Below are positions 280 through 50,471 of a stretch of DNA of 64,000 bases, one piece after another. The stretch lies in contig OX637287.1 in NCBI GenBank assembly GCA_951799445.1, forward strand, positions 49,505,724-49,569,723, in the 5' to 3' direction. Every line of letters begins with the position of its first letter. The first letter of the stretch is position 1. The position numbers were made by a program, and so were the translations under genes. Under the pieces are notes generated by a model. It was not told the origin of the DNA and searched no databases. It saw nothing but the letters and a program-made list of their open reading frames with translations. The stretch comes from Pseudisothecium myosuroides (taxonomy: Eukaryota; Streptophyta; Bryopsida; Hypnales; Lembophyllaceae).

Positions 280-1459
280 ATGATGTTGGAGCCGGTGGTC
301 GAAGAGAGCGAATGGATTCAGTGTACAGCATGCAACCGATGGCGCCTTCTGCCTCCTGGAGTGAGCGCTGACGGCCTACCAGAACAATGGTTCATAACCT
401 TAACTGTGCAACCATTCTTCGAGGGTCGACTATTCCCTAATTTATTGTTGTGTTGGACGTTGGCTTGAGGATTAACTTAGATTCATGCTTGTTGCCCGGG
501 AAGACTAGATCAGATTCTGAGTTTTCGTTGCATGCACTCCGCAAGGGCCTATCTTTTTCTAATAGGGCGAAGTCTTGCTTTAGGTTTTGTCACACGGAGC
601 CTTTTAATAGAAACTGCGACGTCCCTGAAGTGGCTGAAACTCTTCCCGATTCTGTCATTGCCGGTCCCAAGAAGTCTTCGGAAGCGAACACAGGTAATTC
701 AGCACAACTCTAATCTTCCTTGCCACTTTTGTTGAGTACTGTATCACCTTCGGTACGCCAACTTGAACTGCACTCTTTGCTTTCTGTATTGACTGTACGT
801 AGGGTGAGAGACTTAACCCCTGTTTATGGTCCCATTTCAAAGCCCGCGTGAGTATGGACGGAATTCTAATCGGTATCCGTGCACCAATTCTTGGTACATG
901 TACTGATCGCCTCATATTTGTGATTGATTTAGAAGTGATTACTTCATTTTCTCCCTGAGGTTGTCGAATTTTTTTTACAGATTATGAAACTCCAAAGTCG
1001 TGCGTCGAAATATTGGTTTACAAAAGAAAAAGAACTGCGGTTATCAGAAACCGCCTTGAATTCAGAGACTGTTCCGTGCAGATCGCACACCACGGCCCTC
1101 TGGACAATGGTAGGACATTTTCCGCAAAGGAAACTAAGTTCCTTCAAAGGAGCATTGAGAGTTACTTCCCAAAGAAAACCGTGTTGATTCAAAAGAACAT
1201 CAAGGATTTATTCCTGAAGAAAAGAAAGCTCGTTCAAGTGAGTATGAAGGATTACTTTCCGCAGAATACCAAGTTCGTTCAAAAGAGAATCAAGGATTTC
1301 TTCCCAAAAATTAAGTACTTCGAAGCCATGAAGAATCTGAGACAAAGTAGCGTGAACTGCGTCAACAGAGATGTCACGGAGGGAAATTCCAGGACAGTAA
1401 TTATGAATATCACGGCAGGGTTTCGTAGACCTCGTGGAAGAGCAAGGAAGCTCAGATGA
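280..1459 (+). CDS. CW-type zinc-finger protein with four tandem PIP boxes
   Basis: Three exons give a 232-aa protein: 280-389, 584-693 and 981-1459, with GT-AG introns and matching phases. A Trp codon is split across intron 1 and an Asp codon across intron 2. Residues 12-52 form a complete CW zinc finger: W12, C15, C18, W21-R22, W37, C39, C48 and a final D-V-P-E. CW domains read methylated histone H3 lysine 4 (family knowledge). From residue 129 come four 15-residue repeats, each starting with a PCNA-interacting (PIP) box of form Q-x-x-I/M-x-x-aromatic-F: QRSIESYF (129-136), QKNIKDLF (144-151, Leu replaces the aromatic), QVSMKDYF (159-166), QKRIKDFF (174-181). Several are followed by P-K-K-type basic residues. 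The C-terminus is basic and ends in RGRARKLR. The ATG at 280 is the first in the open frame (an in-frame stop lies at 226-228), but a further 5' exon cannot be excluded. The fusion suggests a chromatin reader tied to the replication clamp (inference). Confidence 0.8.
1145..1303 (+). repeat. 45-bp tandem repeats encoding PIP boxes
   Basis: Four in-frame units start at 1145, 1190, 1235 and 1280, exactly 45 nt apart. Each encodes 15 residues and opens with the glutamine of a PIP box. The units have diverged at the DNA level while keeping Gln, the hydrophobic position 4 and the final Phe, as expected if the motif is under selection. Confidence 0.85.
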
Positions 1460-2015: not shown

Positions 2016-2018
2016 TGA
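2016..2018. other. Unoccupied TGA target of the CACTA element (paralogous empty site)
   Basis: Copy 1 reads cacatgacacaattg here with a single TGA. Copy 2 reads cacatga, then the 23.4-kb element, then tgacacaattg. This is the pre-insertion sequence and fixes the element's ends and its 3-bp target duplication. Confidence 0.9.
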
Positions 2019-2032
2019 CACAATTGATGGAG

Positions 2033-3112
2033 CTAGAGTCGAACATCGGACGATGGTGCGGCAGAGGCGACGTCCAGCTGCTTCTTCACATCCGGCATCA
2101 TCTTCTCTACCAACGCCCGAGCGATGGCTACAATGTCGGGGCCGGCTTTGGCAACAGATCCGCAGTTGAAGGGAGGCTGGGGATCGTACTCGATCAGCAA
2201 CTGCACCACCTTCGCAGTGGTTTCGTCGGAGAGTAGCGCAGCTAGTTTCAAACCCATGTCAATTCCTGCCGACACTCCTGCTGCCGTGATAATCTTACCC
2301 TGCAATCCATCAATTTATTAGCCATTTTCATTGATCTATCAATATAAGATTATTTGCTCCAGTGACAGCGTAAGATTAACATGCTTTGCATTCTATTGTG
2401 GCATGGACAAAAGTTGCCAGCGTACCGATTGTACAATACGAGAGCTGACGGGGATGGCACCCAAGTTGGACAGCAAGTTTAAAAACATCCAGTGCGTGGT
2501 AGCTTCCTTTCCTTGCAGAATGCCTGCGGCGCCCAAGAGCATGGATCCCGTACACACCGAGGTTGTGTACAAGCTTGTCTCATGCGCCTTCAAGCATCCA
2601 AACAAGGCAAACCGATCAGTCGCGGATCTCTTAGGCAATAAGTTCAGGAATACACGAAGCATAATTATGTGGAATGGCGTCAGGGAACAGCATCACAAAG
2701 TGAAGCTTGTCGCATGAAACGCTCGTACCTTGCGAATCCAGTCGAGGATGGGCTTGTCAGCCATAAGAGCCTCGGTGCCCTCACCTCCGGGCACGACAAT
2801 GATGTCGGGGCTGGGCACTTCGTCGAAAGTGGCGGTGGCCTGGAAAGAGAGCATGCTCCCGCCGTCTGCGGTGAAAAGGCCCTTTCTATGGCTTACAAAC
2901 ACCACCTTCACGTTGGGAAGGACGTGCAGTGGCTCGTATGGTCCTACGAAGTCGAGCGCTGTCACTTTGTCGAAAAGAGGGATGGCCACCTGCAAAATGC
3001 GTGGGGAGCCCGCTGCCTCCATTTTGTCGGTGAAGTAAGCACTTCCGTTTGGGGATCGAGTACCTGCTGAGAGCGAATGCACAAGATCAGAAACACGAGA
3101 ACACAAATCCAT
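2033..3112 (-). CDS. DJ-1/PfpI family protein (isonitrile hydratase-like), copy 1
   Basis: Three minus-strand exons, 3112-2729, 2587-2426 and 2299-2033, join in phase 0 with GT-AG introns to give 270 aa. The glutamine-amidotransferase-like DJ-1/PfpI fold is clear: ALDFVGPYE with the conserved acidic residue E60, DIIVVPGGEGTEAL (about 103-116), the nucleophile elbow SVCTGS with C140, and GVSAGIDMGL near the C-terminal third. The order and wording best match the isonitrile hydratase-like branch (GATase1_PfpI type), which hydrates isonitriles to formamides in bacteria; the plant substrate is unknown. An alternative start is the Met at 3022 (MEAAGSPRILQV), since the first 30 residues are not typical of the family and could be a leader or misassigned UTR. 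The paralogue at 40256-41336 differs by only a few residues, so both are probably functional. Confidence 0.85.
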
Positions 3113-3954
3113 CGTGAAAGAAAATAAGAAATCCTAATGCCGGAAAAAACACAATAGCACGACATGTTTACATTTACAGGCAATCGGATGCAGGATGGCA
3201 AAGCAAGCGACCGTCTAACGCCAGGCAGGTATTGTACCATCTCACAGCCATCAAACATTTACTAAAGGACACATGTAAGTAGAATGTAATAGATCACAAA
3301 CACGGAGCAAGCAGCATAAATCTCTCCACAATCAGCTCGTGTGCAAACGTCACAGACTCAAAGACAGGAGGGAGCCATGGCTGGCTCCGAATGTGCACCT
3401 TGTGCGCAGAGGAATGTGCAAGTGCGAAATGAGAATTCACCGACGCATGCAAGAGCTGGATAAACTGATCCGATGAATTCCTTGTCACTGGGCCATCGTT
3501 AAATATTGGCAAGGTGGCAGTTTGACTTGAGCAGCAAGCGTCCTCAGAAAACCAACTTTTATTTGTTAGTACAACTCGACGCACAATGATCAAACTTGCG
3601 CCCCAAGGCAGAGCCTACTGACTAATGGATACAGTGCTCCTGTTCAGATTTATACAGTGAAGACGGACTGCAATGAACACTTGAAAGATCAGATTCTATG
3701 CGCAGGAGTGGAATCGACGAACTCATCCCGCCTTTGCAATCGTAAAGAAGGAGGCTGTTCCGTCGATGAACAACAGGTAGTCAACCTAATATACAGGAGT
3801 GAGAGTATAGGTTCAGTCTACCCGGCAAACACAAATACTTCCATCTTTTGACAGTTTGGAATGAGATCTCAACCCTATACAGTAAGGTAGGGTTGGGATT
3901 CATCGTCCAGACAGACAGATTGGGATTGTGTACCCAATTTTGCTGTCTTTCATG
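3113..3954. other. 5' flank of DJ-1 copy 1
   Basis: This is the upstream sequence of the minus-strand DJ-1 gene and should hold its promoter. It is conserved almost base for base with 41337-42209. I see no other gene or clear core-promoter motif. Confidence 0.5.
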
Positions 3955-4424
3955 CTAAGGTAGATGCACCCAATCCCACCCAACACCCAATTCCATCCTC
4001 ATGTACCAATAGTGTGCATTCTAAAAAGGAAATGTGCACCACTGGTACATGAGGGAGGAATTCTTAAAGGGACAAGAATGGGTGAGCCTACCTTGAGGTA
4101 GAAGGCTCGAGAACAGTTCGGGCATTTAGAACCGCCCACCCCATAAATGTACATAGTTTGTACATGTTTTTTTTTCATAGCCTTCATTGATGTACCAACA
4201 GTGTACATTTCAGGGGTTGGCGGTTTTAGAGCCCTAGGGTAGTTCAACTTCAAAGTTTCATAACTAATTCAAAAATGATCCAAAAAATACGAAACGACTT
4301 GGATTAGATGCCAACTCCTCTTGTCTTCGAAGGAAAATTCACTGAAAAATATTTTGAGAAGTTTCACCTGCCTAAAATTCAGTTCCAGTGCTTAGATGGT
4401 TGGTTTATGGACCTTCTACCTTAA
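3955..4424. mobile_element. TTAA-flanked MITE, GGTAGA family
   Basis: The insert begins after CTAA with GGTAGATGCACCC and ends with the complement of GGTAGAAGGTCCAT, followed by TTAA at 4421-4424. The paralogous site at 42210-42213 has only one CTAA and no insert, so the whole stretch is an insertion duplicating a TTAA-like tetranucleotide. It has no coding capacity. A relative lies at 14075-14466. Confidence 0.7.
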
Positions 4425-7400
4425 ATGTTGTAAGAAATGCACTTCGTAGTGAATTGGGGTTGAAATGTCACCATCTAACACTATCTAACTCTAGATGGAC
4501 ACCATTGTTGACACTAAGTGTTTAATGGATGACACAAAAAATTTCTATGTAGGACAAAAGTGAAGATGTTCACCTTTGGAATTTTGTGTGAACAGGGTAG
4601 GTCTTGCACGGTGGTTTGACCTCCAATGAATGCTTTTGGATTTCTTTGAGCAAATGATTCATGAATGCAGTATGAAAAAGTCAGGTAGGTCTTGCATGGT
4701 AGTTTGACCTCTAACAAATGCTCGTGGGTTTCTAAAACAATTTGACAAATATATCAAGAACTATAAATTGATGTGGAATTAGAATTTGAAAATATTGAAA
4801 ATGCATCAAAAGAGACACCAAATAAGTATTTGAACATAATTAACATAAAGAAAATTGTGTCTAATTGTGACATGTACTTGAAGGCAATCCATACACATTC
4901 TTACCTAAAATATAACCACTTTTCTTGATAGCCTAGGGTGGATTTTGTATGAAACTATTTTTAGCAATTTGAAAATTAGTTTTAATAATTTATTTCATAT
5001 TGTGTCAAAAAATGCATGAAGAGAATTTGGAATCTTCTTTGATCTCTAAGAAGATCCAAATGAATGTAGGTAGTTTTCTAATAGAAAACACACTCAAATT
5101 CTAGTTCATATGATATAAAGTGAAGTTATTTTTGTATTGGATATTATGAGCAAATGAAAAAGAATTTTGTTGCATTTTAGTATGTATTCAATTTTACCTC
5201 CTATCAATAAAAATTTTCAAATTTTTAACCCTTAAAGGACGGGCTGGTGACTTTGAAAATCATCCCTTTGGATACCATGTAATTCATTGGCTTAAAAAAA
5301 TACAATAACACGCATTGGAAGTCAATCTGCTTTAAAAGACCTCCTCTTTTCACATCAAAATTCCAAGGGTGAATCAAGTTGTACTTCTATTCTACATAGA
5401 AGGATTCTTTGTCATTCATCGGAGAAAAAACATTTGCAGCAATTTCAAAGATTACGCGAATTTGAATTCGATGTTGATTTTTATAAATTCTTACGGTTTA
5501 ACTTCAAAATTTCACATAATTTCAAATCTTTACAAAAATATCTTGAGCTTCTTATGTTTTATAATAGAGTGATTTCATTCATACATAGAGGTCTACAAAT
5601 ATAAAGATTATGCTTTCATTCATATAATGTGGAAAAACAAAGCTTATTAAGTGGGTGATTGCAAGAAACACTTGTACTATTTTCCGTCACACGTTCAATG
5701 CGGAAGTTGTTTTGTGCCATAAGTATTGCAAAAATGATTGAATGAACATGACATTCAAATGCAAGCTTCCTATAGCAATAGAAAATACAGTTGAATAATT
5801 TCAATTTTTTTTAAACTAATTTAATAGGCAAAATATAATTTTGAATATATGTCACACATGCGGTTTTGGTGGTTTTTAGTACTATTGAGTACCTTTTTTG
5901 CAGAGTTACATCATCAAATTTGTTAGGCTAGCTCTTCTAATAGAAATACACCTTGCTAGGAGAGGAATTTCCAAAAACATTTTCTAAGTGTGTTTTATAA
6001 TGGCTTAAAGTGTGCTATATTCAGGTTGAATTTCTGTTGAATTAAAAATGGTTTCTTAGTTCTAACTTTGATCTTCCTACTTTGCTCTTAATTGACAACT
6101 ATAGCCATTTTTAAAATAAATTTTTCATACTCATTTTTTAATTTTCAAAAATAAAAACATGAAAGTCTCATTTTCTAAGGTAAATTGTAGCATGTGGCTC
6201 AAATTAGTACTCCAAGGTACACAAAAAGACTCAATAGTACTACTGGGGCTCGTAATACCTTCTATTTGCCAAAGTAAATTGTTTTTTAATGGCAAATTAA
6301 GTGTTTCCATCCATTTTTGTCATCCAATGATGAACATCACATGTTGTCAGAAGTGTAAATTTAAAATCCAATTGACCATTCAAATTTTATGTTCCATGCC
6401 TTCAATAGTACTGATCACAAGGCCTAAATTGTGGGAGATTGTTTAATAGCATGATAAAAAAAATTAAATTTCTTTTAAAAATGAAAAATATCATTATTTA
6501 CAAATGATTTGAAACTTTGCTATATCAAAAATCTGACATGGTCGGGAGGCTACCATGTCAATAATATTCTTAAAATTATTTTTAATATTTTATATTATTT
6601 TTAATTTTTTTGAAAAATTGAAAAAAATTATTATTATTTTTATTGTTTTATTATCATTTTATTAATATTTTGACTAGCAGTGCACTTATTCACAGCGTTG
6701 AAACAACCCTCCTATGACCTCAAATCTCTTCTAATGAAATAAAGATGCTCAATCCATTGATATTACCTTTGTAGTAGATTTTGACCACTTTTTGCTTCTT
6801 AAGATGTATTGTACATTTAAGAGGTCGTTGCAAGAGTGGTATTGGTTATTTGTCACAAGGGGAGTGTCGAAGCTTTCATTTGCAATAACTTTTGAAGCAT
6901 GACTTTTGTGAACTTGAATTTTTTTATTGGAGATGTTTGTCTTGAGTTTAATCAAATCTCATATTTTTCAAAAAAATTTAAAAATCATTTAATATTTAAT
7001 AATAAATTAAATTAATATGTCATGTTTTGAGTTTTAGGGTTTTTGAGTACTATGGAGTCCCCAAATTTAATGATCTAGAGCTGAAATTTCTAAGGTCTAT
7101 TCCCATAATAAGAAGTCATGTTTCTACTTAACGGAGTTTCGAAATAATTTTTTTTTATGTCTTCTATATTCATGCAAATAGGAATCCCTTGCATGCGCAA
7201 TTTTGAACATTGAAAATGGTTTCAAGATTATTCTTTTGGTGAAATGTCTTTACCAAGAAGTCTTCCCAAATGACCAAATTCAATTTCTTCAAAAATTGTT
7301 TTTCCTATTTTTAACAAATTAAAACGTCAAAATATCTATTTTCTAGCACTTCTGCACTTTTTTAGTTCTCCTACTTAGAGAATTTTTTTGTGCTTTTCCT

Positions 7401-24172: not shown

Positions 24173-24995
24173 TTAACCCCTAAAGGACCAAGTTCTTTTT
24201 TCTGCCAAAAAACATTCAAAACTGCCATATCTATAGCAAAGAGTAAAAAAAATTGAAATTTGTTTTTTTTTCATATCTAACCGTAGGATCTTACACCTAC
24301 CTAGTATGAGAATGTGTGGAAAAAATTTCTAAATTTTTGATTGCGCAGATTGCAAGATATCTGCATTTAAAGTGAAAAACAGCAAATTTTTAAGCACATT
24401 GCCGAACCAGATTTTTTTACTTTGAACATTTTTAACTTAAAATTTTTGCACTACAGAGTTTTGAGCTTTAAATCTTTAAAGTGGAGAATTGAATTTAGAG
24501 TCTAGGGAATACAAATATTCAAAAAAACTTAATTATCATTCTTAAAAAAATTGTTAAGTACAAGTAGGTACGAGATAGAAGGAAAATCTGAAATATTCAT
24601 ATACTTTAGATGGAATTAAAATGCACTACTCCCAATGGTGAGATTTTTGTAACAAGTAAATCAAACCATGCAAAAAAAAAAAATGGATATTTGAAAAATT
24701 GCATTCAGAAGTAAATCCTACAAGTTATTTTTTCCAAAAAGATGCTCTAATTGCCCGAAAAACAAGAATGTCCATAACTTTCTCTTAACATATCCAAATG
24801 AAATGAATCAAAGCTTTCTAAATAGACAAAAATATAATCTATGAGAAAAAAAATATTTTAAAAAAAAATTCAAATTTTTGTCCAAATTTTTGAGTGATTA
24901 TTTCACAGGAAAAAAATTAAAATTTCATTCGTAGTGAGCTGCCCAAAATTGCTATTGGTTGCCAAAAAAACAAAGCTAGGTCTTTTAGGGGTTAA
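24173..24995 (+). mobile_element. TTAA-flanked piggyBac-like MITE (A)
   Basis: TTAA at 24173-24176 and 24992-24995 flanks inverted ends CCCCTAAAGGACC and, from the right, CCCCTAAAAGACC. The 823-bp body is shared with 28630-29575 and 49535-50471. No transposase is encoded. TTAA target choice plus a CCC-starting terminus matches the piggyBac superfamily pattern; assignment rests on ends only. Confidence 0.7.
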
Positions 24996-27900
24996 ATTGG
25001 TTTGGATCTATTTCATTGTTAAATCCCTTTTCAAATATCACCTTCAAATAGCAATTGTAGATGCATTCTAATAACACATTTTTGTTGATGGATCATATCA
25101 ATTATAAATTTTCGATCATCACTTCTATTGCTCTAGTATCAAAACTTTAAATAATGCACATTCCAATGGCAAGGCTTATACATGGCCTCAACACTTCATA
25201 CATAGGGCCTTCTTGACATGACATTCAATAATGCAGTATTTGTTTTTATTTGGTCAACAACTTGGTACATACCTATTGTATGAAAAACATCCTATCAATA
25301 CGCTTATGAAGATACACATGAAACACTTATGAAAGTATAATACATTAGCTCCTAAAATATTACAAACACAAAACACATATGACCATCCAATTCAACCAAC
25401 AAGCAGTGTGCAAAAGAAACAAGATTGTTTGACTTCATAGTCTATTGACATTGTTGTATCTATATAGTTCTTTTCAATATTTTAGATAAAAATACCATTA
25501 ATAAATTATAGTAATAATAATAATAATAAAAATAATAATAATGATAGATTTGACTTTTTTTAATATATAATTTTGTATGTGACTCTCTAGGGCCGGCAAG
25601 TCTTGTTTATTCTATTCATTGTGGAGCCCCATAAGATACAAAGTGTCCTTTAGAACAGACAACTTGAGGAAAATCATCACAAAGTATTATTTTGAAGAAT
25701 ATTTATATGTACATCTGAACTACACTGAATAGTAAATTTAGATTGCCCCACACTAATTTCTCGACATTCTACACTATATCAATATGTTTATTAACTTCAG
25801 AAGGATGCAATAAAATAAGAACTATGTGTATAACATGGGCTGGTGCATTCGTTCATGGCAACAAAAGGAGAGATTGGCATGTACATCCATCTGGACAAGC
25901 ATTAGTCATGAGGTAACTCCTCTAGGATAAAGCAACGTAATTGTTAAGGCAACCAATTTCACTATTTAGTGTAGTGAATTTGTTTCCTTTGTTTCTTTAC
26001 TTCATTTGATACAATGAGCTATAAGAAGTTATGAGTCCCTTGGTCGCTTTAATTTTAGGTACCTTTGGAAAGCTCTTTCACAAAGATGGATGCACAAACT
26101 TCGTTTCATGGCATTTGGACTTGCAGTGTGCAAGTTATGAGTTTTTGAATTTTATTTTTAAAAATAAAAAATTGATTTAAATTATTTTTAATTTAGGAAA
26201 CATCATATTTTTCATATTGCATATCCAAATACCACAAAACAAAGGCCTTGTAATCTTTCATGCATCAAGTTTTTTATGCATCTAAAGAATGCAACTTCTC
26301 CCACTGCAACAAAGCCCATTCATTCTTCCGTACTTAACCCCTGAGAACCATCTTACTATTTTTAGCAACACAACAATTTCTGACAATTAGATGTGACTAG
26401 AAATTTGCATAATTTAGGCCGAAACTTTAGTAGACATTATGGATGAGGAATATCTTTAATATAAACTCAACTTTATGACATTTGGAAATATGAGTCAAAA
26501 GGTATGGCCTATTGTGTTACTTTTTTTTGTAACTCGGCAGTCTGAGCAGATAAAAAAAAATCACTTTCTTCAAAAACAAAAATTTGATACTGGTTGTCTA
26601 GTTTTATATATATGTGGATAGCTTTGATCATTCCATTTCAATCAATTAATCAAAAGTTATAAGAAGTATTAGTTTTTGGATAGTTTTGGATTTTCTACTT
26701 TAAAATAAAATTTGAAGTCATTTATTTCAATAAATTTTCAATATTTTTGGAAAAAAACAAGAACTCAGGAATTACATTCTTAATTACAACATTACAACCA
26801 TTAAGATTGGCATTTTTCAATTCCGTAACTCAATTCTTAATAGTTTAGTGTCTTGAGTCATTCGCTACTTCTTTCTACTTCCTATTTTTTTCCTATATGT
26901 TGTACACTTCCAAATGATCTAAAACTTTTCAAGCATATATACAGCAAACTTGACTTGAAGAATGACTCCAAAGAGTAACCACCATTATACAAAAGTAACC
27001 TTGTGAAGTACAGCTGCCCGCTTTTTTGCAGCGATCCAAAAAAGAATTTTTTCAATCCAAGCGCTAATATCTTGCAATCCACATGTTGGAAAATTCTGAA
27101 ATTTTTCCCACATCTTTTCAAACTAATGTAATATAAGACCCTATAGTTAAATGTGTCCAAAATTTTTTTTCAAAAATTTGGTACTTGTGTTCAAAATGGC
27201 AATTTTTTATTTAATGTTCTAGGAGAAGACATAGTGAAAGAACTAGAGGGATTAAAGTTTTCTATTTGTATCTTTTAGTATATTTCTTGAAACTATTACT
27301 CTAAAATACCTTTGAAAAAGAAAACTATTTTGTCTAGTATACATGGAATTAATTGTTGAAAATGCATACTGATAAAACATTTTCCACTTTTTTTGAATCT
27401 TTCTAATTATTTTGTACTTTGAATCACTCTAGATTAAACCTTGTATTTTTAAAATAGCTAGAAACAAAAGTTTTATAATACTTCCCACACTCAAATTTTG
27501 AAAATTAAAAAAGGAACAATTACATCAACTTGTTACTCTACAAAATCCTAGTTTACTAAACATTTTCAACCTATGTAGAATTTGCCATTTAAAATTTGAA
27601 AATAATCCATTGTGTCCTCTTAGTCCTTGAAGGGTTCAAGAAAGAGTTTGAGATTTTTTTATTATACCGTAGATGAATTTTTTAAACCCCTAAAGGACCA
27701 ATTGAAGGCCTTTTTTCTGCCAACAAGCACTCAAAATTGTCACTTCTGTACCAAACTAAGAGTGGAAAAAACCAATAATTGTTTTTTTGGGAACATCTAA
27801 CAATAGGATATTATACCTAACTAGTTTGAAGATGTGTGGATAAATTTTCTAAAAATTTTATCACCCAAATTGGAAGAAATCTACGTTTAAAGTGAAGGAA

Positions 27901-28629
27901 ACACATTTTTTTGCACACTGCGGGACTAAATTATTTGATTTTGAATCTTCTAAACTTCAATTCCAGGCTTTATTAAGTTTTGAACTTTAAATATTTCTAG
28001 TGTACAATTGAGTTGAAAAACATATTCCAAAAATATTCCAAAAAAATGAAGTTTCATTCTTAAAGGAAATTGTTAAATAGAAGTACGTATGAGATAAAAG
28101 GCAAATGCAATTATTAATTTCTCTAAGATGAAATTAAAATGCACTAATTCCAAAAATGAGACTATTTTAGACTGCTAGCAAGCAAAGTAAACCATGTGGA
28201 ATTTATTTTCCTAAATAATTGTAAAAATTGCATTCATAAAGGAATACTTCAAGGGGTTTTTTCCGAAAAATTGCTCTAACTGCCCAAAAAACAATATTGT
28301 TCATAACTATCTTATAACAAAATCCAAATGGAATGAATCAAACCTTTCTATGTAGAAAAAAATATAATCTACAACAAAAAAATATCTAAGGGAAAAAAAT
28401 CCAATTTTTTAAATCTTTGTTTTCCGCCCAATTTTGAGCTCATTTGGCCATAACTTTTGTTCCCAAGCACAAATTTTTGGAATTTCTGTTCAAAAAATTG
28501 TTTGACCATGTCTAATTAGCTTGCTAGAACAATATCGTTGTTGAGATGATTGTATTTCAATTCCATCTTAGAGAAATTAATGATTTCATTTTTCATTCCA
28601 TCTTGGATCTACTTCTACCTAACAATTCT
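24996..28629. repeat. Filler with decayed TTAA elements
   Basis: About 26334-27640 (left end TTAACCCCTGAGAACC) and about 27682-28490 (left end TTTAAACCCCTAAAGGACC) are degenerate members of the same family in opposite orientations. An (AAT)n tract lies near 25510-25545. There is no gene. Confidence 0.5.
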
Positions 28630-29915
28630 TTAACCCCTAAAGGCCCAAGGCTTTTTTTTTGCCAAAAAACATTCAAAATTGCCATTTCTATAGCAAGGAG
28701 TGAAAATATCTGAAAAATGTTTTTCTTGCACATCTAATCGTAGGATCTTACACTTAACTAGTATGAGAATGTATGGAAAAAATTTCATAATTTTTGACCT
28801 CTCAAATTGCGAGATATCTGCGTTTAAAGTGAAAAAACAAGTATTTCAGCACATTGCGGGACTAGATTTTTTGACTTTAAACATTTTTAACTTAAAATTT
28901 TTGCACTAAAGAGTTTTGAGCTTTAAATCTTTATAGTGGAGAATTGAATTGAGAGTCTAGGGGAAAAAAAATATTCAAAAAACTTAATTATCATTCCTAA
29001 AAAATTTATTAAGTAGAAGTAGGTACGAGATAGAAGGAAAATCTAAAATATTAATATATTTTAGATGCAATTAAAATACACTAATCCCAATGGTGAAATT
29101 GTTCTAGCAAGTAAACTAAACCATGAGAATTTATTTTTCTTGAAAAATTGCAAAAATAGCATTTAGAAATGAATCCTACAAGTTATTTTTTTCAAGTAGA
29201 TGCTCTAACTGCCCAAAAACCAAGAATGTCCATAACTTTCTCATAACAAATCCAAATGAAATGAATCAAAGCTTTCCAAGTAGACAAAAATATACTCTAC
29301 AAGAAGAAAAATATTTTAAAAAATTCAAATGTTTGCCAAATTTTTCTTGCTGCCCGGACTGCCCAGACTGCCCAGTTACGAAAAAAAGTAACATATTTGG
29401 CCATAACTTTTGACTCCTATTTTCAAATGTCTTGAAACTTAGTGCATATGAAAGATATTCCTTGCGCCCACCTTCTATTAAAATTTCAGCATAGAATATG
29501 GAAATCTCTAGTCAGACGTAACTGCCCAAAATTTCTATACAACCAAAAAACTTAAGCCGGTCCTTTAGGAGTTAATGAATGGAAATCTAAAGTTTTTCAG
29601 GTAAATTTTTTATTTTCAATTCCAACCCAATTGTACAACATATAAAATCAAAAATTCAAAATGTATAGTGTAAGAATTTTAAGCTATGAAGATTCAAAGC
29701 CTTGAAAAATTTATTCAATCTAAGTGTAAAAAATTCAACTGTCTTTACTTCACATGCAATGATCTTGCAATCCACCTACTCAAAGTTTCTAAAATTTCTT
29801 CCACACAATTTTATACTATCCTGGTGCAAGATCCTATGGTTAGATATGCAAGTGAAAAAATTTATGAAGGTTTGGATTTACTGAGTGGTTTTTGAAGAAG
29901 AGAAGGCCTTAGGAG
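28490..29915 (-). mobile_element. Reversed TTAA element split by a nested copy
   Basis: The flanks 28490-28629 and 29576-29915 read as one reversed family member, ending in a decayed CCCCTAAAGGCC-type terminus near 29915. The break point corresponds to the single TTAA in the intact relative at about 50100-50105. Element B sits there. Confidence 0.5.
28630..29575 (+). mobile_element. TTAA-flanked piggyBac-like MITE (B), nested
   Basis: TTAA lies at 28630-28633 and 29572-29575. Ends are CCCCTAAAGGCCC on the left and CTCCTAAAGGACC read from the right. The 946-bp insert sits inside an older reversed relative and duplicates that relative's TTAA. It has no coding capacity. Confidence 0.7.
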
Positions 29916-30345
29916 TTTAGAAAGTTAAAAGAAAGTAAATCCTTTAGTTTTTTAATAGTCATGCAAATGATGGTTGATATGCAAATGAATTGATGATTGT
30001 ATAGAAGCTTTCAGAAAATTCTATGCAAAATACCCAAAAAAATTTGTCCATTTACTTTTAGAAAATTGAAAGAATTGTAGTGAAGTTTCCTTTTACTTTT
30101 TAACAAAGTAAAATATCTATAAAGTAAAAGTTTTCTTTGAATTTTAGACCTAAATATATAAAAAGAGTTGCAAGAAACATTGAAAATATTGTTTACCTTT
30201 TCTACCTTCATTCTGTTTATATTACTGAAAGTTTTGGAGGTAGAATCTTGTGATTCAGTGATTTCATTTATATCTTGTAATTATTAGATCTCATTCAATA
30301 GAAGAGCACAAGAAAGTAGGTGAGAAGATAATTATACTTGAAGAG

Positions 30346-33300
30346 ATGGATACTCCTATTCCAAAATGGAAGATACAATGTGATTGTGACCTGTGCGTAA
30401 CTCCTGAAACTCCTAATGGAAAAATAATTCATAAAGAGACAGCTAGAAGACATGATAAAAGGAGAAGACTCAATTTGAATGAAGCTGTTGGAGTTGCAGA
30501 AGAACAAGGTGTTGCAGTTGTTGTAGAGCAAGGTGTTGGGGTTGATGTAGAGCAAGGTGTTGAGGTTGATGTAGAGCAAAGTGTTGGGGTTGATGTAGAG
30601 CAAGGTGTTGGGGTTGATGTAGAGCATGGTGTTGGGATTGATGTACAACATGAAGGAGAAAGAGAAGAAGAAGAAGAAGAAGAGATGGTTCCGGTGGAAG
30701 TTGAGGAAGCTCATGTAATGGAAGAAGAGGATGACGATCAGGTGGAGGAAGATGAGGGTGTTCCTCCCGAGGAAGAAGATGACATTTCTATGGAGCGAGA
30801 GGATGCATTTTCGATTGAGCAAGAAGATGCAATTTTGTTGGAAGAAGAGGATTTGGCTCTGCAGGAAGAAGAGGATACAATTCGAGTAGAAGAAGGCGTT
30901 GCATCTCCAACTGATGAAGGGACCCAGTACAATACATTAAAACAATTAATGCAATCAAAAGTAGTGGAAATCCAAAGGTTGTGTGATTCTAATGGATGCT
31001 CTCAAGCTATGCAAGAGTCTCTACTACATATGATGTTTAGTGGATTGGGGCATAATAACGAGACTGTGCAACCTTGGGAGCGCACATTTGGAGATGTTTT
31101 CAGGAACATGCCAAATACATGGAAAGGAGAATTGCCAGGGGGGACAATTCCATCAACTTGGAAAAAATTGATGAGTGTCTACAAAAAAGAAGGCATGATC
31201 GAACCGCAACGTTGGAGGTTATGTGTAGGCACTAATGACTTTGTTCATGAACCTTTCATCTTGCCACCTAGTATTGATGACAGTTGCACTAGAATGAGCG
31301 ATAAATTGTGCAATTGTCATCCGCCGAATCGAGTCATGAACCGTGATTGTCCCCGATGCTCTGATAAATGTACAATGTGTACAAATCGATTGAGAAAAGA
31401 TATGATGACATTCGACTACTTGCCAATGATTGTAATGTTTCGTCTTTTGATGAGTGCAAGGGCACTTTGTGAGAAAATGCTTACTATGTGGCGACAAAAA
31501 TCAAGCTGGATTGGAAAAAACCAAACCGAAGCGCCCAGTCATGTCAAAGAATTTTGGCATGGACAGAAATTGAGGATGTACCAAGAATTTTGGAACCCAG
31601 CGTCTGAGTGGGAACTACCCATCCTATGTTTGACTCCGGGATGCAAGATTGCTTATCCAGCATTCCCTGAGAAGTGCCAAAATTTGATACGTGGATGGGA
31701 TGAAGCATCTCAAACATATGGATTTAATTGTGATTTGTGTAAGCGGTGGATATTTGGACGGAAGGTATTGGTGCGTGGAGATCCTCGGAACATTGCTTTA
31801 TCTGTCCATTGGGATGGATTTAGCATCAGTGAAGGCAATAAAGAGCGGAGTACATGGGCTGTGAATGTTGGTGTACTGAATGCAAGCACGTCGGATCCCA
31901 TCATGCTTCTACCAGTGTTATTTATACCAACTGTACCCGGAGCTCAAGCAACAACAGCAAGTTTAGCATTGGAAAAGATGGTGAAGAAATCTGCAACAAT
32001 GTTCTTGCGGCCTTTCATTGAGGAATTGGAGGAGATGTTTTGTAGTGGGTTCAAAGTGAAATACAACTATCCATCCAATCTTATAAGCCCGCTTCTACCA
32101 GAAGCTGAAGTAGATGGAGATATCATCCGTGCTATGCTCATGCTTGTAACTGGGGATCATCCAGCCAATTGCAAGATGAGTAAACTCAAGCAATCAGGAA
32201 AGGCACCGTGTCGCCGCTGCAAAGTGCATACTCAACTGGTAGAACGTGAATATATTGCATCCGGATCTGGTGAAACTCGAAGAAGGAGTGAATACGTGTA
32301 TGGACAAAATCTTCGACAAATTTTAGGAAATACCCAACAACGAACATCCAGGGAATTATATGAAAACCTTTGTAAATGGTGGGAAAAACCAGAAGGTCCC
32401 CAACGTCAAGAGTTTGGAAAGAATGCAGGCATTTCCGGGGAATCTCCGCTTTGGAGGTTTTATCACCTCTATAGATTTGACATGTCAGTGGACATTGTCT
32501 ATGATGTCATGCACACAGCATGCTTGCAATTATTCAAGAATTACACCGTTGAATTGTTCAAAGAGATTTCGCGAGGACAGTGCACAAAAGATGTTGAAAG
32601 CATTTGTGTTGTTGTTGAAAAAGCACGCCCGCGTGAAATGAAAGTTGGACGGTGGCCTTATAAGCCCATTGAAACCCATACTCGCTACGTGGCCGAAGAT
32701 TTGAAGTTATTCGTGATGTGGGTCCTACCCTTTGTGTTGCGTATATGTGGACATAGAATTAAATCTGAATTTAGGAAAATTGGGCTTCTGCTCAATGACA
32801 TTGCACATTACCTTTTCAATTATACAAGGGATAGTGGTTGGAATAGAGAGCAAATTGAAATGGCCTTGAATTTGTTTAAACACTGGCGTGTAATATCGGA
32901 AGATGCATTTGGTCCAAATTCGAGTCCCTTGGAGCACGTAGCGGGCGCTGGCCATCTTCTGCAAGATATCAAGCGTTTTGGACATTCGGATGTTTATTGG
33001 TGTTTTCCTCATGAGCGAGAGGTGCAGAAGTATTTGGACATCAAGACAAACCACAGAGGGGTGGAAAAGACATTCATTGTATTTTATGCACGCAAACTAT
33101 TTCAAGAAGTGCATGTACAAATTGGTCAGGAAGTTGACGGCTTATACGTGCATCAAAGAGCCTTGAGCAAAATCCATAATCATCTTGTATTTCCCCAAGG
33201 CCATCCAGGTGTTGATATCTACAATCGTACAACATGCGACGATCAACATGAACAATGTGTTATGTATTGTACATCTATTGGAGAAGCAAATGAACTGAAT

Positions 33301-33900
33301 CAATTGTTAAAAAAGGCACCGGAGAGTGTTTGTGCACAGATGTTGAAGAAGAAGGGCATCCTCATAGGCCGATTGAACAGTGCAAACTTAAAGCTTGCTG
33401 AGCCTTTTGTGGAAAAGTATATAAAGTCATACTATCAATGGAGAGATAGAGAAATTTTTGTGGATACAAATACTAAGAGGATTATGTTTAAGGGGGTAGT
33501 CTATGGAATTGGTGATGATGTGGTTGTCAGTAGGGATGATGATCCCCAAGGGACACCATGGAAGGCTAGAATCAAAGAATTCATTTGTCACCGTACTGAT
33601 GAAGAAGTTAGTGTGCACTTTGCAGCTAATTATTACAAGTTGCAACAGAGTTGGAGTGGAACAACACATCGATATGAGGACGATATTGATGAATTGACTG
33701 GCATGAATGTGGTAGAAACTAATGCCTTCTATCCATTTGACGAGACAAGCATTAAACCATTGCGGTTGATACAACATAAGTTTATGAGAGTTGACATCAA
33801 CAGAAACCGCGCTATAGCATATGAAATGTGTAGGGCTAAAAGGAGAAATACGTTGGCATTAAGTTTATTTAGGAATACATTAGAGACAAGAACAATGTAG
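30346..33900 (+). CDS. CACTA transposase (tnp2-type), full length
   Basis: One uninterrupted 1184-codon frame from ATG 30346 to TAG. The N-terminus has a Cys cluster (C12, C14, C17), then an acidic repetitive segment (about 45-185) built partly from 8-residue EQGVGVDV repeats. A Cys/His-rich stretch (about 325-350) contains CPRCSDKCTMC. The tnp2 core follows: HWDGF with D490, FIEELEEMF about 70-85 residues later, TGDHP with D604, and CRRC (C622, C625), in the order known for TnpD/tnp2 proteins. These enzymes cut and join CACTA element ends in the nucleus. The acidic residues D490 and D604 are candidates for the catalytic DDE triad; the third was not assigned. The gene lies on the element's left-to-right strand with no need for introns, and nothing in it is broken, so the element may be autonomous. 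Confidence 0.85.
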   Translation: MDTPIPKWKIQCDCDLCVTPETPNGKIIHKETARRHDKRRRLNLNEAVGVAEEQGVAVVVEQGVGVDVEQGVEVDVEQSVGVDVEQGVGVDVEHGVGIDVQHEGEREEEEEEEMVPVEVEEAHVMEEEDDDQVEEDEGVPPEEEDDISMEREDAFSIEQEDAILLEEEDLALQEEEDTIRVEEGVASPTDEGTQYNTLKQLMQSKVVEIQRLCDSNGCSQAMQESLLHMMFSGLGHNNETVQPWERTFGDVFRNMPNTWKGELPGGTIPSTWKKLMSVYKKEGMIEPQRWRLCVGTNDFVHEPFILPPSIDDSCTRMSDKLCNCHPPNRVMNRDCPRCSDKCTMCTNRLRKDMMTFDYLPMIVMFRLLMSARALCEKMLTMWRQKSSWIGKNQTEAPSHVKEFWHGQKLRMYQEFWNPASEWELPILCLTPGCKIAYPAFPEKCQNLIRGWDEASQTYGFNCDLCKRWIFGRKVLVRGDPRNIALSVHWDGFSISEGNKERSTWAVNVGVLNASTSDPIMLLPVLFIPTVPGAQATTASLALEKMVKKSATMFLRPFIEELEEMFCSGFKVKYNYPSNLISPLLPEAEVDGDIIRAMLMLVTGDHPANCKMSKLKQSGKAPCRRCKVHTQLVEREYIASGSGETRRRSEYVYGQNLRQILGNTQQRTSRELYENLCKWWEKPEGPQRQEFGKNAGISGESPLWRFYHLYRFDMSVDIVYDVMHTACLQLFKNYTVELFKEISRGQCTKDVESICVVVEKARPREMKVGRWPYKPIETHTRYVAEDLKLFVMWVLPFVLRICGHRIKSEFRKIGLLLNDIAHYLFNYTRDSGWNREQIEMALNLFKHWRVISEDAFGPNSSPLEHVAGAGHLLQDIKRFGHSDVYWCFPHEREVQKYLDIKTNHRGVEKTFIVFYARKLFQEVHVQIGQEVDGLYVHQRALSKIHNHLVFPQGHPGVDIYNRTTCDDQHEQCVMYCTSIGEANELNQLLKKAPESVCAQMLKKKGILIGRLNSANLKLAEPFVEKYIKSYYQWRDREIFVDTNTKRIMFKGVVYGIGDDVVVSRDDDPQGTPWKARIKEFICHRTDEEVSVHFAANYYKLQQSWSGTTHRYEDDIDELTGMNVVETNAFYPFDETSIKPLRLIQHKFMRVDINRNRAIAYEMCRAKRRNTLALSLFRNTLETRTM
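30523..30654 (+). repeat. 24-bp coding minisatellite in the transposase
   Basis: In-frame units of about 24 nt (gagcaaggtgttggggttgatgta and variants) encode EQGVGVDV repeats, about five and a half copies. They feed into a Glu/Asp-rich tract. The period keeps the frame, so copy number could vary without inactivating the protein. Confidence 0.75.
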
Positions 33901-40238: not shown

Positions 40239-40255
40239 TGACACAATTGATGGAG

Positions 40256-41336
40256 CTAGAGTCGAACATCGGGCGATGGTGCGGCAGAGGTGGCGTCCAG
40301 CTGCTTCTTCACATCCGGCATCATCTTCTCTACCAACGCCCGAGCGATGGCTACAATGTCGGGGCCGGCTTTGGCAACAGATCCGCAGTTGAAGGGAGGC
40401 TGGGGATCGTACTCGATCAGCAACTGCACCACCTTCGCAGTGGTTTCGTCGGAGAGTAGCGCAGCTAGTTTCAAACCCATGTCAATTCCTGCCGACACTC
40501 CTGCTGCCGTGATAATCTTACCCTGCAATCCATCAATGTATTAACCATTTTCATTGATCTATCAATATAAGATTATTTGCTCCAGTGACAGCGTAAGATT
40601 AACATGCTTTGCATTCTATTGTGGCATGGACAAAAGTTGCCAGCGTACCGATTGTACGATACGAGAGCTGACGGGGATGGCACCCAAGTTGGACAGCAAG
40701 TTTAAAAACATCCAGTGCGTGGTAGCTTCCTTTCCTTGCAGAATGCCTGCGGCGCCCAAGAGCATGGATCCCGTACACACCGAGGTTGTGTACAAGCTTG
40801 TCTCATGCGCCTTCAAGCATCCAAACAAGGTAAAACCGATCAGTCGCGGATCTTTTAGGCAATAAGTTCAGGAATATACGAAGCATAATTATGTGGAATG
40901 GCGTCAGGGAACAGCATCACAAAGTGAAGCTTGTCGCATGAAACGCTCGTACCTTGCGAATCCAGTCGAGGATGGGCTTGTCAGCCATAAGAGCCTCGGT
41001 GCCCTCACCTCCGGGCACGACAATGATGTCGGGGCTGGGCACTTCGTCGAAAGTGGCGGTGGCCTGGAAAGAGAGCACGCCCCCGCCGTCTGCGGTGAAA
41101 AGGCCCTTTCTATGGCTTACAAACACCACCTTCACGTTGGGAAGGGCGTGCAGTGGCTCGTATGGTCCTACGAAGTCGAGTGCTGTCACTTTGTCGAAAA
41201 GAGGGATGGCCACCTGCAAAATGCGTGGGGAGCCCGCTGCCTCCATTTTGTCGGTGAAGTAAGCACTTCCGTTTTGGGATCGAGTACCTGCTGAGAGCGA
41301 ATGCACAAGATCAGAAACACGAGAACACAAATCCAT
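40256..41336 (-). CDS. DJ-1/PfpI family protein (isonitrile hydratase-like), copy 2
   Basis: Exons 41336-40953, 40810-40649 and 40522-40256 have the same lengths and phases as copy 1 and give 270 aa. The PGGEGTEAL loop, nucleophile elbow SVCTGS (C140), acidic E60 and GVSAGID motif are all intact. Differences from copy 1 are few (SQNGS for SPNGS, HALP for HVLP, GGGVLS for GGSMLS, a changed C-terminal DATSAAPSPDVRL). Here the frame also opens at an ATG five codons upstream (41351). The CACTA element's right end lies only 18 bp from the stop codon, so its 3' UTR and polyadenylation must now come from transposon sequence. The role is as for copy 1. Confidence 0.85.
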
Positions 41337-43892
41337 CGTGAAAGAAAACAAGAAATCCTAATGCCAGAAAAAACACAATAGCAAGACATGTTTACATTAT
41401 TTTACAGGCAATCGGATGCAGGATGGCAAAGCAAGCGACCGTCTAATGCCAGGCAGGTACGTATTGTACCATCTCACAGCCATCAAACATCAACTAAAGC
41501 ACACGTCTAAGTAGAATGTAATAGATCACCAACACGAAGCAAGCAGCATAAATCTCTCCACAATCAGCTCGTGCGCAAACATCACAGATTCAAAGACAGG
41601 AGGGAGCCATGGCTGGCTCCGAATGAGCACCTTGTGCGCAGAGGAATGTGCAAGTGCGAAATGAGAATTCACCGACGCATGCAAGAGCTGGATAAACTGA
41701 TCCGATGAATTCCTTGTCACTGGGCCATCGTTATATATTGGCAAGGTGGGAGTTTGACTTGAGCAGCAAGCGTCCTCAGAAAACCAAATTTTACTTTGTT
41801 AGTACAACTCGTCGTACAATGATCAAACTTGCGCCCCAAGGCAGAGCCTACTGACTAATGGACACAGTGCTTCTGTTCAGATATATACAGTGAAGACGGA
41901 CTGGACTGGACAAAGTTGCAATGAAGACGTGAAGATCAGATTCTATGCGCAGGAGTGGAATCGACGAACTCATCCCGCCTTAGCAATCGTAAAGAAGGAG
42001 GCTGTTCCGTCGACGAACAACAGGTACTCATCCTAATACACAAAAGGGGTGAGAGTAAAGGTTCAGTCTACCCGGCAAACACAAATACTTCCATCTTTTG
42101 ACAGTTTGGAAATAGATCTCAACCCTATACAGTAAGGTAGGGTAGGGTTGGGATCCATCGTCCAGACAGACAGATTGGGATTGTGTACCCAATTTTGCTC
42201 TCTTGCATGCTAAATGTTGTAAGAAATGCACTTCATAGTGAATTGGGGTTGAAAAGTCACCATTTGACTCTCGAAGGACATCATTGTTGACACTAAGGCA
42301 GTGTCCAATGGATGACAAAGAATTTTTCTATGGAGGACAAAAGTGGAGATGTTCACCTTTAGAATTTTGTGTGAAAAGGGTAGGTCTTGCATCATGGTTT
42401 GACCTCCAATGAGTGCTTTGTGATTTCTTTGAGCAAATGTTTAATATGGTATGAAAAAGCCAAGTAGTTCTTGCATGGTAGTTTGACCTCTAATGAGTGC
42501 TCTTGGGTTTCTAGAACAATTTGACAAATATATCATGAACTATTAATTGATGTGGAATTAGAATTTGAAAATATTGAAAATGCATCAAAAGAGACACCAT
42601 ATAAGCATCTGAACATAATTACCAGAAGGAAAATTGCGTCTAATTGTGACATGTACTTGAAAGCAACCCATACACATTCTTGCCTAAAATATAACCTCTT
42701 TTCTTGATAGCCTAGGGTGGATTTTGGATGAAACTATTTTTAGCAATTTGAAAATTAGTTTTAATAATTTATTTCATATTGTGTCTAAAAATGCATGAAG
42801 AGAATTTGGAATCCTCTTTGATCTTTTAAAAGATCCAAATGAACTTAGGTAGTTTTCTAATAGAAAATACATTCAAATTCTTGTTCATATGATATAAGGT
42901 AAAGTTATTTTTGTATTGGATATTATGAGCAAATGAAAAAGAATTTTGTTGCATTTAGTTTGTATTCAATTTTACCTCCTATCAATAAATTTTTTCAAAT
43001 TTTTAACCCTTAAAGGACGGGCTAGTGACTTTGAAAATCATCCCTTTGGATACCTTGTAATTCATTGGCTTAAAAAATGCAATACCAATCATTGGAAGTC
43101 AAACTATTGTAGAAGACCTTCCTCTTTTCACATCAAAATTCTAAAGATGAAGAGTTGCACACTTGCACTTCTATTCTACATAGAAGAATTCTTTGTCATT
43201 CATTAGACAAAGTACGTTTGCGGCAATTTCAAAGGTTACGCCAATTTGAATTTGATGTAATTTTAATAAATTCTTACGGCCTAATTTCAAATTTCACATA
43301 ATTTCAAATCTTTACAAAAATATCTTGAGCTTCATATAATAGAATGATTTCATTCGTACGTAGAGGTCTACAAATATAAAGATAAATTTTTTATTTATAT
43401 AATATGGAAAAACAAAGCTTATTAAGCGAAGGATATTAAAGATTGGTTACATGTTTATAACTTTTGTCTTTTCAAGTTAACTAATTTATAATAACTTTAA
43501 GATTGAAGTATCAAAAAATGTTATTCCCTTAATGTGGTCATGTGATGCTTATGACATTACCAATATGACCTCAAAATTATCTTTGCATAATGTCTTCAAC
43601 TATATACACACATGATGATATACACACATGATGCAATAGGCAATTCATGTAATATTTTGGAACCCTTAGTAAATGATTTTGAATCTTTCTCAATTTTTGT
43701 TTTAGTAGTAACTAGAGAAGGATTTGTCAATGGTAGTATCTAATATATAAAAGACTAGAAGTGGTCATCTAGTAGTGATTTGGCTCAAAAAGAAAAACCT
43801 TATTTTTTGAATAAAATTCAAAGAATTATCTATTTGTCAAGATAACCCATGATCGAGAAAATAGGCTTTCATTCAGTGGATTATGAATGTTT
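41337..43892. other. Duplicated-block non-coding sequence, copy 2
   Basis: 41337-42213 is the DJ-1 5' flank, very close to copy 1. 42210-42213 is the unoccupied CTAA site of the 3955-4424 element. 42300-43210 is the foldback repeat. After about 43440 the sequence departs from copy 1. No gene is seen. Confidence 0.5.
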
Positions 43893-44822
43893 TTAACATG
43901 TAAACAACCATTATCCCTTTGAGGGACAAATTGGATTTTAGGCAAGTATCTACTGTCTCATTTTTTATCATGATTTTTTGAAACTTTATTTATAGATAGA
44001 AAAATTGATTAACTTTGGAAGAATATTAAAAGAATTCAATTGGTGCCTAGAAACAAAAATTATGTGTAAATTAGCTCTAAACAATTGAGACTGGGCAACA
44101 AAAAAAAATTCAAAAATTTTAATGTTAATTTTGTTTTTTCATAGATTATATATACTTTTAATACAGAAAAAAGCTTTGATTCATTTCATTTGGATAATTG
44201 ATGTGAAAGTTATGGATAATCTTGTTTTTCAGACAATTAGAGCATTTTCCTAAAAAAACTAACTTATGGGATTCATTTCTAAATGCAATTTTACAATTTA
44301 AAAAAAGAAGAAGTTCTAGATGGTTTAACTTGCTTTCTAAAACAATCTCACCATTGAAATTAGTGCATTTTAATCCCATCTTAGAAATAGTAATTATTTA
44401 GATTTTCCTTTTATCCCCGCTTTTATCTCATACCTACTTCTACTTAACAATTTTTTTTTAAATGAAAATTAATTTTTAAATTTTTTTCCCTAGACTCTCA
44501 ACTCAATTCTCCACCATAAAGATTTAAACCTTAAAAATTTGTAGTGCAAAAAATTTAAGTTAAGGAGGTTGAAAGTCAAATAATCTAGTCCCGTAATGTG
44601 CAAAAAAAACTTGCTTTCTTCACTTTAAATGCAAATATCTAGCAATTTGTGAGGTCAAAATTTTTCACAAGTTTATTCCACACATTCTCATACTAGGTAG
44701 GTGGAAGATCCCATGGTTAGATGTGCAAAAAAATAATTTTCAAATTATTAACTCTTTGCAATAGAAATGACAGTTTTTAGTGCTTTGGGGCAAAAAAAAG
44801 GCCTTGGTCCTGTAGGGGTTAA
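43893..44822 (-). mobile_element. TTAA-flanked piggyBac-like MITE (E)
   Basis: TTAA lies at 43893-43896 and 44819-44822. The right end read inward is CCCCTACAGGACCAAGGCC; the left end is decayed. The body matches the family in the orientation of 49535-50471. About 930 bp, non-coding. Confidence 0.6.
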
Positions 44823-49534: not shown

Positions 49535-50471
49535 TTAACCCCTAAAGGCCCATTGTCCCCTCGGGGGACAAATGGGATTTCGGGCAGGTACCTACGGGCT
49601 GAAATTTTGTCCTGATTTTTTGAAACTTTTTTTGAAGATAGAAAAACTGATAAGCTTTGTGGGAATATAATTTTTTCCACAATCGGTGCCCGGGAACAAT
49701 AGTTATGACCAAATAAGCTCAAAACAAGGGACGGCGGGCAGCCCGGGCAGCAGAAAAAAAATGGACAAAAATTTGAATTTTTTTTTTTAATATTTTTTTT
49801 CTGATAGATTATATTTTTGCCTATCTGGAAAGCTTTGATTCATGTCGTTTGATTAAGTTATGAGAAAGTTATGGATATTCTTGTTTTTCGGGCAGTTAGA
49901 GCATCTTCTTGAAAAAAATAACTTGTAGGATTCATTTCTGAATGCAATTTTTCAAATTTTTCAATTTTTTTTTTTGCATGGTCTGATTTACTTGCTAGAA
50001 CAATCTCACCATTGGGATTAGTGTATTTTAATTCCATCTAAAATATATGAGTATTTTAGATTTTCCTTCTATCTTGGACCTACTTCTACTTAACAATTTT
50101 TTTAAGAATGATAATTAAGTTTTTTTGAATTTTTTTTTTCCTAGACTCTCAACTCAATTCTCTACAATAAAGATTTAAAGCTCAAAACGCCGTAGTGCAA
50201 AAATTTTAAGTTAAAAATGTTTAAAGCCAAAAAATCTAGCCCCGCAATGTGCTGAAAAACTTGTTTTTTTCACTTTAAACGCAGATATCTTGCAATCTGT
50301 GCAGTCAAAAATTCTGAAATTTTTTCCATACATTCTCATACTAGTTATGTGTAAGATCCTACGGTTAGATGTTCAAAAAAACATTTTAAATTTTTTTTTA
50401 TACTTTGCTATAGAAATGGCAGTTTTCAGTGTTTTTTGGCAGAAAAAAGGCCTTGGGCCTTTGGGGGTTAA
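49535..50471 (-). mobile_element. TTAA-flanked piggyBac-like MITE (D) with proven empty site
   Basis: TTAA lies at 49535-49538 and 50468-50471. Ends are CCCCTAAAGGCCCA on the left and CCCCCAAAGGCCCAAGGCC read from the right. The paralogous position 10286-10289 has a single TTAA in otherwise matching sequence, so the insertion duplicated exactly TTAA. 937 bp, non-coding. Confidence 0.8.

Follow-up and report, generated by a model that had tools for sequence, protein, structure and literature searches.

A moss gene that joins a CW domain to an array of PIP-like boxes and may encode a tether of PCNA to H3K4-methylated chromatin

A gene close to one edge of the window, by which we mean the whole 64,000-nucleotide stretch of Pseudisothecium myosuroides DNA analysed here, raises the question of whether a single small plant protein could hold the PCNA sliding clamp beside nucleosomes methylated at H3K4. 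The initial annotation of the locus had described a CW domain followed by evenly spaced PIP-like boxes, and this observation is confirmed at the level of sequence. In the reading that we favour, and to which we assign a probability of about 0.55, the product would be a small, non-enzymatic adaptor that connects PCNA with H3K4-methylated chromatin, and its array of boxes would have arisen from a single box.

Splicing of three plus-strand exons (280-389, 584-693 and 981-1459) yields a single open frame for a predicted protein of 232 amino acids, which starts with the ATG at 280 and ends with the stop codon at 1457-1459. Exon 1 contains the ATG and codes for the N-terminal two thirds of the CW domain (W12, C15, C18, W21 and W37), exon 2 contains the end of the domain (C39, C48 and E55) and the start of a linker, and exon 3 supplies the basic linker, the PIP array, the C-terminal tail and the stop. 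An AATAAA on the same strand at 1539-1544, 80 bases past the stop, may act as the poly(A) signal. The junctions proposed in the initial annotation, 389/584 and 693/981, both stood up to a sequence check, the two introns being of the GT-AG type and in phase. Intron 1 (plus strand, 390-583) reads GTTCAT...CTTTAG and intron 2 (plus strand, 694-980, 287 bases) reads CAG/GTAATT...TTTTTTTTACAG; the fraction of T is 0.36 in both, against 0.20-0.25 in the exons. When 4 donors were combined with 5 acceptors for intron 1, 7 pairs kept the frame and 6 of them remained open to the stop. Among these six, the CW pattern was produced by 390-583 only, with W-F-C united across the splice, and the first junction is thus supported by homology. 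For intron 2 the acceptor at 980 is a good one; in-frame alternatives lie at 959 and 1067, and the array is retained with all three. Judged against the splice consensus, the first donor, GTTCAT, looks weak. A stronger-looking, consensus-like donor, GTGAGC, is present at 361 inside the CW-coding exon 1, and its use would give a form that carries the PIP array without an intact CW domain, a possible regulated isoform.

The remainder of the window contains several repeated segments. A DJ-1/PfpI-type gene on the minus strand is duplicated together with its flank (2016-3958 and 40239-42213, 95.7% identity), and the homology extends at 88.8% between 4422-5651 and 42211-43426; comparison of the window with itself places the CW-PIP gene outside this duplication, and tblastn found no second copy of the gene in the window (other matches E 1.4 or worse). 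A tandem duplication (54308-57890 and 57891-61387, 88-91% identical in four aligned pieces) contains a TIR match at 58104-58505 and an LRR match at 61345-61746, with no family assigned at 56873-57850, and probably represents two plant genes of the resistance type. The 1212-codon open frame at 30262-33897, which matches Transposase_21 (tnp2; E 0.00029) below the threshold, is perhaps a CACTA-type element. The TIR, LRR and weak tnp2 matches point to a plant source. Self-comparison also detected five copies, 73-88% identical and in both orientations, of a repeat some 700-900 bases long (24173-24891, 27685-28410, 28630-29345, 43890-44822 and 49532-50471). Rfam gave no match within the window.

The CW domain is well defined in the spliced protein. 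Residues 11-52 match Pfam zf-CW with an E value of 1.9e-13 and 50.6 bits (cut-off 27.5) over profile positions 1-45, whereas unspliced exon 1, read through in its own frame, reaches 35.6 bits and covers positions 1-28 only; the splice therefore completes the domain. All four cysteines (C15, C18, C39 and C48) and all three tryptophans (W12, W21 and W37) ascribed to it earlier are present, in line with a score above the Pfam cut-off, four Cys and at least two Trp as marks of a CW protein, the Cys/Trp rule being that given in the available passages of PMC11937836. A Pfam scan of the window protein at E up to 1 found no PHD finger, the reader domain detected being zf-CW.

Among PDB sequences, the best CW matches are the animal proteins MORC3 (1.5e-10) and MORC4 (2e-8), and those to ZCWPW1 (0.0033), ASHH2 (0.0082 to 0.011) and MORC2 (0.037 to 0.056) are weaker. 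W12 and W21, nine residues apart, align with the pocket tryptophans W410/W419 of MORC3 and W426/W435 of MORC4 (for MORC4, see the pocket passages of PMC7596504), and E55 aligns with Glu453, as placed by counting from W410, which completes the MORC3 pocket (PMC9043364, in the passages available). Both pocket tryptophans and the completing glutamate of a MORC3-type reader are accordingly found in the sequence. In the CW loop, C-T-A-C, the alanine is that of MORC3, at a position where ASHH2 has Asp870 (PMC9043364). Because the domain is nearest to those of MORC3 and MORC4 and has both pocket tryptophans and the equivalent of Glu453, H3K4me2/3 is a likelier predicted ligand than H3K4me1, the mark preferred by ASHH2. 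The CW domain of MORC4 is described as binding H3K4me3 with a Kd of about 0.1 μM (PMC7596504). MORC3 and MORC4 differ from the present protein in possessing a GHKL ATPase, which the gene model lacks, and it is a PIP array that follows the CW domain here. The pocket residues point to histone binding, as the motif in the array points to PCNA binding.

The four PIP-like motifs start at residues 129, 144, 159 and 174, exactly 15 residues apart as first described. With a strict PIP box defined as Q-x-x-h-x-x-a-a, the consensus given in passages of PMC6116012 and PMC3491057, three of the four conform to the canonical sequence, namely box 1 (QRSIESYF, residues 129-136, 1145-1168), box 3 (QVSMKDYF, residues 159-166, 1235-1258) and box 4 (QKRIKDFF, residues 174-181, 1280-1303). 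Box 2 (QKNIKDLF, residues 144-151, 1190-1213, like the others on the plus strand) is off by one position, as the initial annotation had said of one of the four, with a non-aromatic Leu at position 7. At the DNA level, TRF reports a 45-nt repeat at 1188-1305 with a score of 131, and the copies of an 88-nt reference in a repeat search are 65-74% identical. In 200,000 shuffles of the 159-residue exon-3 part, no strict box appeared in 198,154, one in 1,841, two in 5 and three in none; the array copies being tandem duplicates, these shuffles are no test of four independent events, and they indicate that the motif is real but say nothing of selection on each copy. The six frames of the window hold 14 strict matches in 127,996 codons, namely the three array boxes and 11 others. 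Two of these 11, QSKILKFF and QKNILNFF, lie 24 codons apart at 50302-50397 in one 97-codon open frame that overlaps repeated DNA; this pair is probably due to chance or to the repeat, and it shows that strict boxes can fall close together outside the array.

A PIP degron of the CRL4-Cdt2 type, which calls for Thr-Asp in positions 5-6 of the box together with a basic +4 residue, was rejected: by eye, the four boxes have ES, KD, KD and KD at positions 5-6 and T, R, T and K at +4. A PDB sequence search with the array, covering chains of at least 20 residues, returned no PCNA ligand, a result of little weight given that length limit, and its weak matches to RpoN (E 1 and 8.3) were discarded. The Pfam matches to Cas_APE2256 (E 0.077 in the window protein and 0.093 in the homologue P0001) and LPD1 (E 0.058 in P0001), both below the cut-off, were discarded as well.

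Protein searches returned three homologues, P0001, P0002 and P0003, all of which are fragments covering exon 3. A first search (97 candidates) gave P0001 (80% identity over 59% of the query) and P0002 (79% over 50%), a second, alignment-based search (1651 candidates) added the 75-residue P0003 (E 3.6e-3, 44% over 44%), and the two matches of a third (10 candidates) were both already known. One alignment-based scan each of a viral collection (78 pattern-matching stretches) and a prokaryotic genome collection (132 such stretches) found none encoding a relative. Exon 3 with boxes 1 and 4 is kept in both close homologues. Counting the window protein, P0001 and P0002, boxes 1 and 4 are strict in 3/3 (box 4 being identical in all), box 3 in 2/3 and box 2 in 0/3. 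P0001 has the same strict boxes as the window protein (1, 3 and 4), and P0002 has strict boxes 1 and 4 only, its box 2 lacking the Gln and both aromatic residues and its box 3 lacking the Gln. The initial annotation had named loss of the motifs in orthologues as evidence that would count against it; one homologue shows such loss, of boxes 2 and 3, but boxes 1 and 4 are not affected. Its picture of four equivalent motifs goes too far, with box 2 off-consensus in all three array proteins, box 3 without its Gln in P0002 and a single box in P0003.

The distant P0003 carries one box, QRSIESFF. Its left flank scores 19 (BLOSUM) against that of box 1 and 6 against each other box, and its right flank scores 34 against that of box 4, versus -5, -13 and -9 for the others. 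Because the flanks of this single box match box 1 on the left and box 4 on the right, the array probably grew from one ancestral box by tandem duplication of a 45-nt unit within exon 3; the reverse, in which deletion left P0003 with one box, is possible. Strict boxes thus form a natural series of one in the P0003 fragment, two in P0002 and three in both P0001 and the window protein.

The loss of boxes 2 and 3 in P0002 and the one box of P0003 would also be expected of a relaxed tandem repeat, in which function rests with one box and chance has preserved the remaining, drifting duplicates. The copies have indeed diverged, with a pooled pS of 0.46 and pN of 0.33, synonymous change not being clearly higher. 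The preservation of boxes 1 and 4 in every array protein, and of box 3 in two of the three, argues against drift, as does the slower change of the anchors: pN between copies is 0.16 at the four anchors, 0.37 at the other box positions and 0.42 in the linkers, the corresponding pS values, from few sites, being 0.53, 0.20 and 0.53, so that at the other box positions pS falls below pN. Sets of four positions as conserved as the anchors number 25/1365 over the three proteins and 50/1365 in the window protein alone, about 2-4% of position sets in tests made after the motif was seen, and this conservation offers modest support for selection on the boxes. We consider drift of all copies but one somewhat unlikely.

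The spacing of the boxes bears on how many could act together. Neighbouring boxes are separated by 7 residues, with a maximum stretch of about 29 Å, boxes 1 and 3 by 22 residues (about 83 Å) and boxes 1 and 4 by 37 residues (about 137 Å). The binding pockets of adjacent PCNA subunits are some 50-60 Å apart. As 29 Å is too short for this distance, bridging of subunits within a single ring would require boxes at least two apart, and the best-kept boxes, 1 and 4, form a pair far enough apart to do so by the same geometry. A figure legend in PMC6116012 contains a comparable argument, in which six residues are judged unable to span 36 Å. Binding of box 2 to PCNA is expected to be weak. According to the available passages of PMC3491057, a near-PIP may hardly bind PCNA, and an ING1 peptide without the second aromatic residue is weaker than a p21 peptide by 4-5 orders of magnitude; box 2 is without the first aromatic, and the ING1 case is an analogy. 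We therefore picture the protein, from its sequence, as a putative bivalent to trivalent PCNA tether rather than a tetravalent one. The earlier proposal of a multivalent PCNA tether on H3K4-methylated chromatin is retained as far as the CW domain, the boxes and their spacing are concerned, and is not supported in its version with four equal motifs.

The array lies in a basic segment, its net charge being +11, that of the tail +9 and that of the CW part -7. The basic tail, RRPRGRARKLR (plus strand, 1424-1456), is AT-hook-like. The core of an AT-hook is RGRP, whereas the window protein has RGRA; RGRP is found in P0001 only, Pfam gave no AT-hook match (E up to 1 for the window protein, E up to 0.1 for P0001), and this assignment was rejected. 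A structure prediction for exon 3 from a 3-row alignment gave a mean pLDDT of 37, with low-confidence helices over the array; so low a value is in keeping with disorder, for which an alignment of 3 rows is weak evidence. Basic flanks add to PIP binding (PMC3491057, in the passages available).

In the favoured adaptor reading, a small protein, probably nuclear and without an enzyme domain, would use its MORC3-type CW domain to hold H3 methylated at K4, with me2/me3 likelier than me1. The basic linker would lead into a disordered C-terminal half, whose PIP boxes would dock into the pockets on the front face of PCNA. The working boxes would be 1 and 4, and often 3, and one molecule could occupy two subunits of the ring or hold one by rapid rebinding. 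PCNA, or nascent chromatin loaded with it, would in this way be kept beside H3K4-methylated nucleosomes.

The same features could serve a competitor of PCNA clients, in which the array fills the PCNA pockets and excludes other partners in a p21-like manner, the CW domain serving only to bring the brake to active genes. Such a role would suit a protein in which Pfam found no effector domain and which carries several boxes within a short segment that is basic and probably disordered. Box 2, degenerate in 3/3 proteins, box 3, degenerate in 1/3, and the existence of the single-box P0003 speak against it, and sequence does not separate competition from tethering. We regard a competitor as unlikely.

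Since the gene start lies 279 bases from the edge of the window, further 5' exons beyond base 1 are possible, and the three exons might be the end of a longer MORC-like gene with its GHKL ATPase upstream of base 1. The CW domain is nearest to those of MORC3 and MORC4, in which it comes after the ATPase (PMC7596504, in the passages available). A possible acceptor ends at 261; its pyrimidine fraction is 0.67, and those of the 3' sites accepted for the two introns are 0.60 and 0.73. The exon-1 frame is open from 229. On the other side stand the plausible ATG at 280 and the in-frame stop at 226. The two longest upstream plus-strand frames, 27-146 and 56-196, gave no Pfam match at E up to 1, the frame 229-465 gave zf-CW and a rejected C2-set match below the cut-off (E 0.027), and a GHKL ATPase was found neither in the 232-residue gene model nor in the upstream frames scanned with Pfam within the window. 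Moreover, we know of no plant MORC with a CW domain. That the exons belong to such a longer gene is in our view quite doubtful; both this reading and the relaxed repeat are compatible with PCNA tethering, and the confidences given to these readings overlap. That exons 1-2 with the CW domain and exon 3 with the array belong to two genes is very improbable, for although the homologues found span exon 3 only, the intervening 287-base intron is in phase, GT-AG and free of AATAAA throughout 694-980, and exon 3 has no in-frame ATG ahead of box 3. The predicted linkage of CW domain and PIP boxes is based on one gene model.

A chromatin reader and a PIP motif in one protein are already known from ING1b and ATXR5/6, which are closer architectural precedents than MSH6, the likeness to the present protein being one of layout only. 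ATXR5 and ATXR6 carry a PIP motif, and we know of no PIP array in either; to our knowledge, TLS polymerases have neither an even PIP array nor a histone reader. MSH6, with which the initial annotation had drawn an analogy, has a PIP box. The comparison is apt on the reader side, since MSH6, like PDS5C, is recruited through contacts between Tudor domains and H3K4me1 (PMC13361950, in the passages available). In p33ING1b, an H3K4me3 reader and a PIP-like box are likewise found together (PMC3491057, PMC6896041), but the reader is a PHD finger, and the single PIP is off-consensus and very weak for PCNA as a peptide (PMC3491057). Interaction with PCNA has also been reported for the plant PHD chromatin proteins ATXR5 and ATXR6 (PMC6986063; Raynaud 2006, by its title); these differ in that their reader is a PHD finger and a SET methyltransferase domain is present. 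TLS polymerases similarly have two or more elements for PCNA contact in their flexible parts, but pair the PIP box with a ubiquitin-binding domain (passages of PMC6116012).

Plant CW domains occur in ZIFI1 (At3g62900) and ASHH2/SDG8 (PMC11937836, PMC13361950); unlike the small adaptor proposed here, ZIFI1 has 1,403 residues and ASHH2 is an H3K36 methyltransferase that prefers H3K4me1. PMC11937836 has 0 mentions of PCNA, and PMC13361950, a review of plant H3K4 readers whose available passages name the CW domains of ASHH2/SDG8 and SDG725, has 0 mentions of PIP or PCNA. The moss literature found with zf-CW concerns VAL, PWWP, ASHH-type and other genes, the VAL family combining B3 with zf-CW (PMC6599366). 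In the open-access literature, no paper with both a CW domain and a PIP box was found (for the spelling 'PIP-box', among papers that also name H3K4, PCNA and plant). Some papers mention both PCNA and a CW-type zinc finger, PMC9925317 on MORC2 being an example; among the matches listed, none was relevant by title or start of abstract, and for PIP arrays none of the matches listed was on point by title.

A wider reading, possible rather than probable and offered tentatively, is that the gene represents a plant adaptor family in which an H3K4me2/3-binding CW domain and an expanded PIP array would retain PCNA at active genes avidly and in a manner that depends on chromatin state, the tether to the clamp being set by valency and not by motif strength. 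If this is true, the sliding clamp would be connected directly, and without an enzyme, to a mark of active chromatin. How plant repair is steered to H3K4-methylated genes is a live question, and a reader whose clamp motifs vary in number would offer another route beside the Tudor-based recruitment of MSH6 and PDS5C. The natural series of one-, two- and three-box proteins makes the value of valency testable.
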